From: a virus
Virus record (IMG/VR): IMGVR_UViG_3300042516_005813
Coordinates: 1-26,651 of that record
DNA length: 26,651 nt
Reading direction: 5' to 3' (one strand)
Shown here: positions 18,227-22,978 of the stretch, one piece after another
Layout of the letters: every line of letters begins with the position of its first letter
Position numbering within the stretch: the first letter of the stretch is position 1
The notes under the pieces: generated by a model
Told to the model about the DNA's origin: nothing
Databases searched by the model: none
What the model saw: the letters and a program-made list of their open reading frames with translations, nothing else
Made by a program: the position numbers and the translations under genes

Positions 18227-19408
18227 TTAAAGCGGGTCAGGCTCAGTAACCAAGTCGTGGTAATAAGCCCAAGTGGTCTGCGTGCTGGCGTGGCGAAGCA
18301 TACGGCTTGCCACCTCGAGCCCGTCGCGCATGGCGACCTCCGCGCCGAACTGCATGCGCAAATTGTAGGCCAGTTTTTTACCACGACGGGACAGGAATTT
18401 TTCCACAAAACGATTCACCGCCCGCTCGCAAATTTTCTCCGCGTCAGTCTGGCACTCGCGGGGAATGACAAATTCCTCGCTTTCTGGAAACGCCGCCCGC
18501 AACTGCTCAAGCAAGTCGGCCCTCACCGGCACGGCTCCAGCCCGCCCCTTCGGGTAGTAAAATTTTCCTTTTCCCAAGTCACGAGTAGTAAATTCCAACA
18601 CCATGCTTTTCTTCCCCTGGCGAATCCAATCCCACCGCAAATCGATCGTCTCATGGTTGCGCAGGCCGCACCAACGCATGAGCGCAAAGACCGCCCACAC
18701 TTGGCGATCTTCCAGCGCATCACTGGTGCGCAGCGCCTCGGCCGCAGCCTCCATCCGCGCCAACACATCAGGCGGGATGCACACGAAAGCGGCACGCTTC
18801 ACAGCGCCCTTCGACTCGCGGCGGCGCGTGCTGAAAACCACGCTACGAAATGCCTCCACCGGCGGCAATTTGAGATCGGAATAAGCGTAGAGCACGCTGG
18901 GTTGCAAAACGGATTTGATAGAATTGACATCCGAACGAATGCCATCCTCTCCCCTACCCGCCGCCGCCGCCGCTTGTGTCCACTTGCGGAACACCTCGCC
19001 ATCCAGCGCACGGTCCAGCTTCTCCTCCCGAGGAGTCGTCGTCTGAAGCGCCGCCGCAACAAACCGCTCAAACCTCCCCGACACAGCCGGAGCGCTCTTG
19101 ATCGGCCCTGCCTTTTCCCAGCGGTCCAGCAATTCCCCCACCGTCGAGAAGCCCGGCCGAGCCACCATGGCATCAAGCGCCACCTGGTCCTTCTCAAGAA
19201 TCGCCCGAGATAATTCCTTCGCCTTCCGCTCCGCCGTCTTCTTCTCCGACTTGGAACGAATCTCCGTGGATCGTTTGTAGCGCTTGCCATCAACCTGCAC
19301 GCGATAATACCAAGCCCCCTTCTCCTCATCCCAATAAACCGTCGCTTCACCATGCTTGCGCTTCGATTTTTGGGGGCCACTTTGGGTGCCACTTGTGTTT
19401 GTATTCAT
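18227..19408 (-). CDS. int: Tyrosine recombinase integrase
   Basis: This 393-residue protein has an N-terminal arm-binding-like region (GEATVYWDEEKGAWYYRVQV). A SAM-like core-binding domain follows, then a catalytic domain with R250 in MRWCGLRNHE, R351 in YNLRMQFG and H373 in LRHASTQTTWAYY. Y382 is the likely nucleophile. The first histidine of the usual HxxR is Tyr, a known tolerated change. It would catalyse site-specific recombination between attP (19495-19541) and a host tRNA-Lys gene. The ATG at 19408 is preferred; an in-frame TTG at 19444 would add 12 residues but coincides with a -35-like TTGACT. The gene converges on the giant virion gene with only 3 bases between stops. Confidence 0.93.
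   Translation of the reverse strand: MNTNTSGTQSGPQKSKRKHGEATVYWDEEKGAWYYRVQVDGKRYKRSTEIRSKSEKKTAERKAKELSRAILEKDQVALDAMVARPGFSTVGELLDRWEKAGPIKSAPAVSGRFERFVAAALQTTTPREEKLDRALDGEVFRKWTQAAAAAGRGEDGIRSDVNSIKSVLQPSVLYAYSDLKLPPVEAFRSVVFSTRRRESKGAVKRAAFVCIPPDVLARMEAAAEALRTSDALEDRQVWAVFALMRWCGLRNHETIDLRWDWIRQGKKSMVLEFTTRDLGKGKFYYPKGRAGAVPVRADLLEQLRAAFPESEEFVIPRECQTDAEKICERAVNRFVEKFLSRRGKKLAYNLRMQFGAEVAMRDGLEVASRMLRHASTQTTWAYYHDLVTEPDPL
19372..19394 (+). repeat. Arm-type site candidate, copy 1 (tandem)
   Basis: GGGGGCCACTTT (19372-19383) is followed at 12-base period by GGGTGCCACTT (19384-19394). It lies inside the 5' end of the integrase gene, about 100 bases from the att core. The same string recurs at 19481 and 19579 on the other sides of the core. 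Short direct repeats flanking the core are the usual form of integrase arm sites; binding here is inferred. Confidence 0.5.
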
Positions 19409-19444
19409 TGAGCGGAATAGACAGATTAGACGCTCGAAAGTCAA
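19409..19444 (-). promoter_or_regulatory. Integrase promoter candidate, leaderless
   Basis: On the minus strand TTGACT (19444-19439) is followed by a 17-base spacer and TCTATT (19421-19416). After 7 bases comes the ATG at 19408. Five of six bases match the -35 consensus and four of six the -10. If used, transcription would begin at or within a base or two of the start codon, giving a leaderless mRNA. There is no Shine-Dalgarno before this ATG. Confidence 0.4.
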
Positions 19445-19480
19445 GGTCAGTTGATCATTTTCCCTACTGAAAGGGTAAAA

Positions 19481-19497
19481 GGGGCCACTTTAAGTGG
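19481..19497 (+). repeat. Arm-type site candidate, copy 2, with inverted repeat
   Basis: GGGGCCACTTT (19481-19491) continues into AAGTGG, making the inverted repeat CCACTT-T-AAGTGG (19485-19497) that touches the CCA end of the tRNA fragment. On the minus strand the inverted repeat is followed by CCCCTTTT, so it could also act as a weak terminator for the leftward genes at 19600-20164. Confidence 0.5.
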
Positions 19498-19541
19498 TGC
19501 GCCCCCCGGGACTCGAACCCGGAACCAATTGATTAAGAGTC
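19495..19541 (-). other. attP: attP core: 3' part of tRNA-Lys(CTT)
   Basis: Read on the minus strand, this stretch gives GACTCTTAATCAA (anticodon loop CTCTTAA, anticodon CTT), then TTGG, then the T arm CCGGG-TTCGAGT-CCCGG, then the acceptor strand GGGGCGC-A and CCA. It closely follows bacterial tRNA-Lys from the anticodon stem-loop to CCA. The 5' half is missing, because bases beyond 19541 do not complete the anticodon stem or form a D arm. It lies about 90 bases upstream of the integrase start. Phages that integrate in tRNA genes carry such a 3' part to restore the gene. Phage genes on both sides indicate attP rather than a prophage end. Confidence 0.8.
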
Positions 19542-19578
19542 GAGTAATTTTTGTTGGCGAATAATGGGTTATGATAAA

Positions 19579-19601
19579 GGGGGCCACTTTGGGGGCCAGT
19601 T
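19579..19601 (+). repeat. Arm-type site candidate, copy 3 (tandem)
   Basis: GGGGGCCACTTT (19579-19590) is followed immediately by GGGGGCCAGTTA (19591-19602), again at a 12-base period as in copy 1. It lies on the far side of the att core from the integrase gene, overlapping the end of a leftward small gene. Together the three sites surround the core at roughly 100-base spacing. Confidence 0.5.
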
Positions 19602-19815
19602 ACCTTTGAATTTGGCTGCGTTCTTCAGCGGTGGCTTGGTTGAGTTTCTCGCGGATCCAAGCGCTTAGTTTGGCGGGCTTGGCGGCACGGACCCAGGCGC
19701 TTTTTTCTTCGGGGTAGCAGAAGAAGAGGATTTTGGCGGTCATGTTGTCGGCTTCGGGGTCGCGGGCGTTGTTTCGGTTGCCGGTGTTGCCGTGGGGCTC
19801 GATGTCGGGTGTCAT
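19600..19815 (-). CDS. Small basic protein, RHH-like DNA-binding candidate
   Basis: This 71-residue protein has a polar N-terminus (TPDIEPHGNTGNRNNARDPE) and a core resembling ribbon-helix-helix or mobilisation-type regulators. A strand-like AKILFFCYPEEKSAWVRAA is followed by AKLSAWIREKLNQATAEE, like the common (L)SAWIRE.L helix. The ATG at 19815 overlaps the upstream stop (ATGA). A later in-frame ATG near 19743 (MTAKILFF) is an alternative start that keeps the whole core. It is the last gene before attP, so a recombination-control role is possible, but this is only contextual. Confidence 0.55.
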   Translation of the reverse strand: MTPDIEPHGNTGNRNNARDPEADNMTAKILFFCYPEEKSAWVRAAKPAKLSAWIREKLNQATAEERSQIQR

Positions 19816-19985
19816 TGATTAAATGGGATGGGATGTTTCAAAAGAATTTTCTCTGCTGCGCGGATGGCTTGGGCAAGGTAATCGAGATTGGCGGCAAAGG
19901 TGTCTGGATTGTCTTTGTCACGCAAGACGAGCTTTGCTGTGTCGGTAAGCAATGCCAGGGCATTGTAAAGTTTGAGATTTTCCAT
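19812..19985 (-). CDS. Small hypothetical protein
   Basis: This is a 57-residue, mostly helical protein (MENLKLYNALALLTDTAKLV, then NLDYLAQAIRAAEKILLKHP). ATG 19985 is chosen over an in-frame TTG at 20000, because GAGGTG lies 7 bases before the ATG. It is in a leftward operon with a small membrane protein upstream and an RHH-like protein downstream, the latter by ATGA overlap. No family is recognised. The repeated alpha-helical amphipathic pattern suggests a small dimeric or partner-binding protein. Confidence 0.6.
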   Translation of the reverse strand: MENLKLYNALALLTDTAKLVLRDKDNPDTFAANLDYLAQAIRAAEKILLKHPIPFNQ

Positions 19986-19996
19986 GCTCGGACACC

Positions 19997-20164
19997 TCAA
20001 ATGTTGGGGTTAAGATGACCGGCAATAAGGCTGAGGGCGTAAAATCCGGCAAGGCCGAGGACAAATGCAGCGGGGCCGTGGGTGAGGGTGAACGACGAGC
20101 CAAGCGCGAGGCTGGCGGTGGATGCTGTGGCGAGTGTCACAGCAAGGAGGTTTTTAATTTTCAT
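19997..20164 (-). CDS. Short membrane protein
   Basis: This 55-residue protein begins MKIKNLLAVTLATASTASLA and ends LALSLIAGHLNPNI-like text (GFYALSLIAGHLNPNI). Two hydrophobic segments, residues about 5-22 and 32-49, are joined by a short polar loop (GSSFTLTHGP). The first could also be a signal peptide with a cleavable Ala site. The protein is very small and its codons match its neighbours. The ATG is the last base triplet abutting the second of two tandem hairpins, and the stop lies 11 bases before the next ATG. The role is unknown. Location in the lysogeny operon makes superinfection exclusion or host-envelope modification possible. Confidence 0.65.
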   Translation of the reverse strand: MKIKNLLAVTLATASTASLALGSSFTLTHGPAAFVLGLAGFYALSLIAGHLNPNI

Positions 20165-20219
20165 TTTTCGTTCCCGGATTCGCCGGGCCGATTTTTATTT
20201 TCCAGATTCGCTGGACCGA
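20164..20219 (-). promoter_or_regulatory. Two tandem 28-nt hairpin units in the leader of the leftward operon
   Basis: On the minus strand two 28-base units follow each other directly: 20219-20192 and 20191-20164. Both begin TCGG and contain a 5-bp stem around the loop CGAAT, then an A-rich tail. The stems differ but both pair: TCCAG/CTGGA in the first, CCCGG/CCGGG in the second. The paired changes preserve the fold, which argues for selection on structure. The second unit ends at the A of the ATG. A leader RNA or translational operator is inferred; the element is not one I recognise. Confidence 0.5.
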
Positions 20220-20357
20220 GGCGGGCCGTGGTTGGCTCGCTTAAAAATGAATGTATAAAGATTCAAAAGTGGCGCAAGAATTATTTCTATATTATAAAAA
20301 TATTTTTTCAGAAAATGCTTGACGCCTGCGAAAGCTGATAAAATCAACCTCTGCGGG
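20220..20357. other. AT-rich intergenic stretch
   Basis: No gene is supported in this 138-base gap. It is markedly AT-rich from 20240 to 20345, with TATAAT-like text on the minus strand near 20285-20295 and TTGACG on the plus strand at 20319. It must carry the promoter for the leftward operon at 20164 or read-through from the lipoprotein gene. I could not define a clean -35/-10 pair or a terminator. Confidence 0.4.
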
Positions 20358-21487: not shown

Positions 21488-21640
21488 ATGACAAAAATCG
21501 TTCAAACCAAAATCCCCGCAGAGGTTGATGAAATCATCACCGAGCTGGCCAAAAGCCAGATGGTGAGCCGGGCCGCCATCGTGCGGCAGTTGCTGGTGAA
21601 AGCTGTCGCAAAAGCCAAAGCTCAGGAGGGCCAGATATGA
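21488..21640 (+). CDS. Ribbon-helix-helix protein (rightward), 50 residues
   Basis: This 50-residue protein begins MTKIVQTKIPAEVDEIITEL. The ribbon-helix-helix pattern fills it: strand KIVQTKIP, helix AEVDEIITELAKS, turn QMVSR, helix AAIVRQLLVKAVAKA. It is the first gene rightward from the operator array, the position of Cro-like or Arc-like early regulators. AGGAGG at its 3' end (21624-21629) serves the next gene, whose ATG overlaps its TGA. It would bind the 21431-21476 array or a nearby site. It is missed by searches that require longer proteins. Confidence 0.7.
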   Translation: MTKIVQTKIPAEVDEIITELAKSQMVSRAAIVRQLLVKAVAKAKAQEGQI

Positions 21641-22120: not shown

Positions 22121-22978
22121 ATGGAATCCACCCCTTTGCAATCCATGAAGGCCGCCGAGTCTGCCGCGCCTTTTCTTTTTAATTTTGAGGAATTGAGTGC
22201 CGAGAAACTGGAAGGCGTCGGGGAGTTCACCGGCGAGCGTTTGCTTGCCCGCCGGCCGGATGCTTACCAGGCAATCATCCGCATGAGCGCCGAGGGACTG
22301 AGTATTTCCGCCCAGGCTCGGGCGCTTGGGGTGAGTCGAAACACGGTTTGCGCCGTGAGAGATCGGGAAGGGTTTTCTATAGAGCAGGATAAAAAGGATT
22401 TGTTGCGGGATGTTCGGCGGGCTGCCCGGCTTTCGGTGGAGAGGGCCATCGAACTGGTGCCTTGTATCCAGAACGCTAAGGACGCGGCCATCGTTGCGGC
22501 CGTGATGGTGGACAAGATGCAGTTGCTGTCGGGTGAAGCTACCGCCCGCATCGAGAAGGTAGAGGTTAGCCAGGACAAACTCTCGGAGATGCTGGCCAGC
22601 TTGCCGGTGCTCGAAGCTGAGGTAGTGCCAACCGGTTTACACGGGAGCGGGTCGGGACAAAAGGGGCCGGATGCGCTGGGGCTGCCGGGTGCCGGTTCGG
22701 TGGGTGCTGAGGGCTGGATTGATATAGGATCAACTGATTTGGGGGCCATTCACCTACTGAACGCCGAAGCGGGGGCCACTTTGAGGGGCCACATGGCCGA
22801 AGGTCAGGCCGTCGAGCCGGTCGAGGTCGAGGCCGTGGCGGTCGATCAGGAGGGGGGGGGGGGGTCTGGATTTTCGGACACCCCCCCTATGACACCCACT
22901 GATTTGGGTGAGCAGAAAATTTTATGCAAAGGGGTCTCTGCGTCGCAGGAGGCCGCTGAGGAGCTTTCAACTAACTAA
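22121..22978 (+). CDS. HTH regulator with low-complexity tail and poly-G tract
   Basis: This is a 285-residue protein. Residues about 51-84 form a helix-turn-helix (AIIRMSAEGLSISAQARALG, then VSRNTVCAVRDREG), similar to resolvase or terminase-small-subunit type DNA-binding domains. Residues 90-160 are helical (RRAARLSVERAIELVPCIQN, AVMVDKMQLLSG). After about residue 170 the protein is Gly/Glu/Ala-rich and poorly ordered, with the 13-G run encoding GGGG at about residue 246. The ATG at 22121 is preferred over an in-frame TTG at 22112. It could be a regulator of early genes or a small terminase-like protein. Its tail also contains GGGGGCCACTTT-like DNA (22741-22790). Confidence 0.6.
   Translation: MESTPLQSMKAAESAAPFLFNFEELSAEKLEGVGEFTGERLLARRPDAYQAIIRMSAEGLSISAQARALGVSRNTVCAVRDREGFSIEQDKKDLLRDVRRAARLSVERAIELVPCIQNAKDAAIVAAVMVDKMQLLSGEATARIEKVEVSQDKLSEMLASLPVLEAEVVPTGLHGSGSGQKGPDALGLPGAGSVGAEGWIDIGSTDLGAIHLLNAEAGATLRGHMAEGQAVEPVEVEAVAVDQEGGGGSGFSDTPPMTPTDLGEQKILCKGVSASQEAAEELSTN
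22852..22864 (+). repeat. 13-G homopolymer within coding sequence
   Basis: Thirteen consecutive G lie in the HTH regulator gene, followed after 15 bases by ACCCCCCC (22880-22887), which can pair with GGGGGGGT. Loss of one G gives a frame ending at TGA after GLDFRTPPL; gain of one ends after VWIFGHPPYDTH. Either change would remove the last 35 or so residues, so the tract is a possible contingency (slippage) locus. Confidence 0.55.

Follow-up and report, generated by a model that had tools for sequence, protein, structure and literature searches.

What is the role of two tandem hairpins that abut the start codon of a small phage gene? The question arises on the minus strand of a 26,651-base IMG/VR virus record (hereafter the window, i.e. 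the whole stretch of DNA that was analysed), which encodes a tail collar fibre protein, an exonuclease, a DnaB helicase and a tyrosine integrase and can, on the strength of these genes, be regarded as a temperate tailed phage. Comparisons of its DnaB and of an 80-aa protein yielded no placement of the phage. The integrase gene (18227–19444, minus strand; PF00589, phrog_1) is adjoined by a stretch that reads as the 3' half of a tRNA, probably tRNA-Lys(CTT) (19497–19550, minus strand), and is a likely attachment site; ARAGORN detected no complete tRNA in the window. Repeats of GGGGCCACTTT (19372–19388, 19480–19492, 19579–19595 and 22771–22787) surround this tRNA-Lys piece and the start of the integrase gene and may be integrase arm sites. 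The window also contains a 22-nt inverted repeat with 86% complementarity (20336–20357 versus 21515–21536), one arm of which lies in the start of a CopG-like gene and the other upstream of the hairpins described below, perhaps as a gene remnant.

Organization of the leader

Two adjacent 28-nt units precede the 55-aa ORF (19997–20164, minus strand). Read on the minus strand, the first (20219 to 20192) is TCGG-TCCAG-CGAAT-CTGGA-AAATAAAAA and the second (20191 to 20164) is TCGG-CCCGG-CGAAT-CCGGG-AACGAAAAA, its final A being the A of the ATG. Both hairpins, which we call H2 (20201–20215, minus strand) and H3 (20173–20187, minus strand), form when the window sequence is folded as RNA, and the end of H3 is separated from the start codon by an 8-nt A-rich spacer, AACGAAAA (20165–20172, minus strand), devoid of a Shine-Dalgarno sequence. 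The tandem arrangement is thus as reported in the preliminary description of this locus; the three paired changes counted there between the units reduce to two (T-A to C-G and A-T to G-C), and that description had overlooked both a further hairpin, H1 (20221–20240), and a pair of promoter-like boxes (20250–20277).

With these elements included, the leader spans about 115 nt and comprises, from 5' to 3', the promoter-like boxes, H1, H2, H3, the A-rich tail and the ATG. The −35-like box TTGCGC (20272–20277, minus strand) is followed after 16 nt by the −10-like box TACATT (20250–20255, minus strand), and a promoter consensus scan of the leader called no promoter. H1 (GCGAGCC-AACCAC-GGCCCGC, minus strand) contains a single A.C mismatch, which on the opposite strand would be a G.U pair. 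The fold energy of the window sequence alone is not unusual (z of −0.44 for a 63-nt piece and −1.7 for 171 nt), so that the window by itself gives no proof of selection on structure.

Conservation and covariation among related phages

Relatives of the leader were collected by pattern scans of viral contigs and sorted into groups A–E by stem sequence. A covariance model detected one strong copy (72–89 bits) in each of 22 related viral records; weaker matches lie 0.6–2.9 kb downstream on the same strand, with a single upstream exception in the record of L048. A REP-like dispersed repeat, which is present in many copies per genome, is rejected on the same count, and the earlier suggestion of a small mobile repeat is not supported for the full leader; single H3-like hairpins do occur at other starts of the same operon. 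Searching named phages and plasmids with the leader by blastn gave no match. Genomes, scanned for the tandem pair of group A alone, returned a single match, a tandem repeat of another hairpin (CCCGCGAATCGGGAAAAATCGGTTA; L077:6179–6222) that is unrelated and comes from a Ruminococcus bin.

The leaders share the consensus TTGC[AG]C, 16 nt, TANNTT, H1, H2, H3, A-rich spacer and ATG. In the alignment the first box is found in most leaders; the second, as judged by inspection only, takes the form TA-N-N-TT in most relatives, with the variants TACATT, TAGATT, TAGGTT, TAAATT and TAGTTT. H1 is nearly invariant, its mismatch moving to the next pair in groups D and E and being replaced by an A-U pair in L094. 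H2 and H3 vary extensively, and in each of them five of the six pairs are changed on both sides. In group D the counterpart of H2 is GUCGGU-CGGCA-ACCGGC, in group E it is CGAGG-CGGCA-CCUCG. The H3 stems come in at least eight variants (CCCGG, UCCGG, CCCAG, CCAGG, GCCGGA, GCCAGA, AUCAGA and GUCAGA, with their complements), the core of which is always paired. Across 14 distinct leaders, in an alignment hand-trimmed to the hairpins and hence biased towards structure, 89% of the cells are paired and 11 of the 19 pairs are changed on both sides, a count that is also inflated by kinship among the leaders. None of 500 shuffles reached the covariation score, which dropped from 0.45 to 0.10 or less when the partner was slid by one to three columns; a set of ten leaders gave the same picture. 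The proposal that the hairpins are under selection for structure, originally argued from the two units of the window, therefore draws its support from covariation between genomes, far beyond chance, and not from the fold energy of the window.

Two further features were seen in subsets of the relatives. In L019, L083 and L107 an array of 7-nt tandem repeats lies approximately 520–680 nt upstream of the leader, producing 72-nt identical matches that step by 7. In the group B leaders L078, L079, L081 and L088 an ATG about 8 nt past H2 begins a short reading frame that traverses H3 (MARHIRERK...). This frame either coincides with that of the main gene or stops at a TGA overlapping the main ATG, and possibly encodes a leader peptide.

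Exchange of genes behind the leader

The 55-aa hydrophobic protein encoded directly behind the leader in the window has relatives in 20 viral loci and no match in Pfam. In most records the first gene likewise encodes a hydrophobic protein of 55–57 aa. Elsewhere its place is taken by genes for ArdA (L003, L066), ArdC (L048, L131, L134), an LPD29-domain protein (L031, L150) or DUF932 (L140, L167), some of these assignments having been made from a match to the N-terminus only; RadC-like and additional DUF932 genes follow further along in several records. The second gene of the window operon encodes a 57-aa protein (MENLKLYNALALLTDTAKL...; 19812–19985, minus strand) homologous to the product of a fixed downstream gene (METLKLYN...). 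The third encodes a 71-aa protein (MTPDIEPHGNTGNRN...; 19600–19815, minus strand) without a match in PHROG and overlaps the preceding stop, as it does in relatives, where the operon runs from the 57-aa gene through a gene of 71–80 aa to the integrase.

Among records that carry leaders of the same group and different first genes, blastn shows a likeness that sets in about 500 nt upstream, covers the leader and breaks off at the ATG; many alignments of group A with group E end past H1. In relatives the METLKLYN... gene is preceded by a hairpin of its own, which its homologue in the window lacks, and in L126 the H1–H2 part of the leader is joined straight to this hairpin, the cargo gene being absent. 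Internal genes with an intergenic gap carry GCCGGA-CGNNN-TCCGGC 8–10 nt before their ATG in several relatives. Since the hairpin is lacking at several other starts of these operons, it is not required. A second hairpin type, GGCGAGGG-TCCGATC-CCCTCGCC, was observed 9–13 nt before internal ATGs in L118, L111–L114, L120 and L124. Taken with the exchange of first genes at the ATG, the leader is probably a fixed expression platform for exchangeable cassettes, often anti-defence genes.

Start-associated hairpins in other phages

Hairpins of the form CCGC-stem-CGGHW-stem-A, located closely upstream of start codons, constitute a wider class. A search of viral contigs for CCGC-GCCGGA-CGNNN-TCCGGC-A retrieved 77 stretches, many of them in phages not otherwise visibly linked, with a stop codon before the hairpin and a Shine-Dalgarno sequence behind it; 66 of the 78 distinct sites with this stem precede an ORF starting with ATG. 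A control search for loops not beginning in C gave 20 stretches, mostly inside open frames. With the stem GCCCGG/CCGGGC, 94 stretches were counted and 84 distinct sites analysed, of which 74 precede an ATG ORF and 58 lie behind a preceding stop. For both fixed stems together (166 distinct sites in IMG/VR), a sense start lies within 34 nt of 141, against 25 that lie before an antisense start; these sites are not all independent, since many of those with the second stem precede one small-protein family (MRAKM...). The loop consensus is C-G-G-H-W, and positions left free by the pattern are conserved as well, position 3 being G in 117/141 and position 5 being A or T in 134/141. We considered a CsrA/RsmA site and rejected it: the loops in the window are CGAAT, and in the class a GGA arises only where loop position 4 is A (39/141), so that most loops lack the GGA and binding by CsrA is unlikely.

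The distance from hairpin to ATG is mostly 8–9 nt where there is no Shine-Dalgarno sequence and about 17–26 nt where there is one, and hairpins between cistrons often begin directly behind the previous stop. Among the genes downstream are members of the gp49/gp66, Acb2/Tad1 and ArdC families. In L175 (1080–2190), five start-associated hairpins occur in a row before small genes, each with a nearly identical ribosome-binding region (CAGATATGGAG), and one of the five has a compensatory closing pair. When the collected loci were scanned for CG-loop hairpins near starts with stems other than GCCGGA, a single additional site was found (L127), and the generality over stems consequently rests mainly on the GCCCGG search. 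In named phages of Rhizobium, Mesorhizobium, Bradyrhizobium, Synechococcus and Bacteroides the hairpin occupies a gap of 43–56 nt between annotated genes, and in Pseudomonas JBD5 a matching hairpin lies in a gap of 219 nt; the four named phages examined have at most one or two such hairpins per genome. Among the carriers with a named host, either phages or apparent prophages, are L204 (Bradyrhizobium), in which the loop has six bases, L299 (Pseudomonas JBD5) and L306 (Paracoccus megaplasmid).

H3 combines a paired stem of 5–6 bp, a C-G-[GA]-N-[AT] loop and a position closely upstream of an ATG (CCCGG-CGAAT-CCGGG, 8 nt). H3 and, by ancestry, H2 belong to this class of start-associated hairpins, defined by a 5–6 bp stem and a CGGHW or CGAAW pentaloop. 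The hairpins of unrelated phages could be convergent rather than kin. The search of other genomes proposed in the preliminary description has thus located the unit in many phages, where it recurs before start codons with compensatory stem changes, in agreement with the original view of it as the leader of a gene; it may, as also suggested there, be a translational operator or a processed leader.

Comparison with known elements

At the gathering threshold, Rfam 15 gave no match in the window or in 13 loci of the wider class, with weak chance matches only, and the hairpin class was not found described in the openly accessible literature that was searched. In the Frpo/ssi regions of conjugative plasmids it is the promoter that folds, in single-stranded DNA; unlike these, the leader has its hairpins downstream of the promoter-like boxes and resides in tailed dsDNA phages. 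The two have in common a hairpin-bearing control region before antirestriction genes, e.g. ardA and ardC (PMC11541004, PMC9849209).

The nearest described kind are the SAS/ESAS elements of cluster K mycobacteriophages, whose function is unknown and for which a role in translation initiation has been proposed (PMC3203893, PMC12699233). They too are short conserved elements directly 5' of phage start codons, associated with unrelated genes and in some cases consisting of inverted repeats (PMC3203893, PMC12699233), but their defining sequences are absent here: SAS, located at the ribosome-binding site, is a 13-mer of fixed sequence, GGGATAGGAGCCC (PMC3203893), which the leader lacks, and ESAS consists of 17-bp imperfect inverted repeats with a 4–13 bp spacer and conserved sequence, whereas the leader has variable stems of 5–7 bp and a conserved pentaloop. 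Hairpins near phage starts that act on initiation are also known from T4, where a structure in gene 25 aids initiation and gene 43 has an operator (PMC3014915); these concern single genes and have other loops (UAAC in gene 43), with a known protein ligand in one case (PMC3014915).

Proposed function and alternative explanations

We consider it fairly probable that, in a family of temperate tailed phages, the element forms a structured 5' leader to a transcription unit, within which a hairpin of the wider class defines or insulates the initiation region, with exchangeable cargo behind it. Transcription probably starts right behind the −10-like box, and the mRNA would therefore open with H1, H2 and H3, followed by an A-rich start free of a Shine-Dalgarno sequence. 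More generally, phages position such a hairpin immediately before the ribosome-binding region, both at operon starts and between genes, where it may delimit the initiation region on its 5' side and keep the A-rich or Shine-Dalgarno segment single-stranded. By separating the initiation region from upstream sequence, it would allow a new gene to be translated on its own terms. The conservation of the loop suggests recognition by some factor, possibly a widely conserved one of the host and perhaps the ribosome itself. The predicted openness of positions −8 to +6 is higher in the leaders than at other starts of the window (0.81 versus 0.65, p 0.003, with rows that are not independent), this interval having been picked, to exclude the stem, after the predicted accessibility over −12 to +6, stem included, had proved equal in leaders and other starts.

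Alternatively, the hairpins might serve mRNA stability or processing, shielding the 5' end, or a cut site between cistrons, from nucleases or marking processing between cistrons, with only an indirect effect on translation. Such a role would suit the position of H1 near the predicted 5' end and the frequent placement of intercistronic hairpins right behind the previous stop; it nevertheless appears unlikely, as the spacing tracks the start codon and shifts with the presence of a Shine-Dalgarno sequence, and protection alone needs no fixed loop sequence. The exchange of cargo at the border between leader and ATG, and the direct junction in L126 between H1–H2 and the hairpin of the 57-aa gene, might instead point to palindromes that act at the DNA level, possibly as single-stranded hairpins, and delimit modules for cassette exchange. 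Homologous recombination, however, does not need stems that vary with their pairing kept, and both the orientation and the spacing of the hairpins follow the start codon, so that we regard a recombination boundary as slightly less likely again. An integron attC site in particular was rejected, inspection of the window leader having revealed neither its GTTRRRY core nor RYYYAAC.

The position of the hairpins directly behind promoter-like boxes and upstream of an operon also recalls promoter-proximal antitermination RNAs of the HK022 put or lambda nut type, in which nascent hairpins modify RNA polymerase. The put RNA reportedly has two hairpins directly behind early phage promoters, a likeness of description only. 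It antiterminates as a nascent RNA that requires no protein, acts on RNA polymerase (PMC9378689) and has no tie to start codons, whereas the hairpins considered here hug them and occur between operon genes as well, far from promoters, which renders antitermination improbable. A DNA operator bound by a dimeric repressor near the promoter would account for inverted repeats right downstream of the boxes, but most sites of the wider class are intergenic, and the arms of H2, H3 and their relatives are too unlike for a single sequence-specific dimer to bind them all, leaving this explanation very little room. An intrinsic terminator on either strand is hardly credible: on the plus strand H3 is followed by CCGATTTTTA, but with a four-base offset of the T run; H2 has none, and no T run stands behind the hairpins of the window on the sense strand.

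Returning to the leader as a platform for initiation, a bolder generalization is conceivable, which we put forward tentatively: that a start hairpin with conserved structure and a specific loop, common to tailed phages of several bacterial phyla and read by a conserved host component, constitutes a plug-in translation-initiation module for foreign cassettes (ArdA, ArdC, Acb2/Tad1-like, gp49/gp66 and others) wherever they land. The finding raises the question of which conserved cell component reads the CGGHW pentaloop beside a start codon. A single promoter-leader that takes different antirestriction genes, joined at the start codon, offers a sequence handle on the expression of accessory genes, and the hairpin class could help to locate accessory genes, and genes against host defences, in phages that lack annotation.
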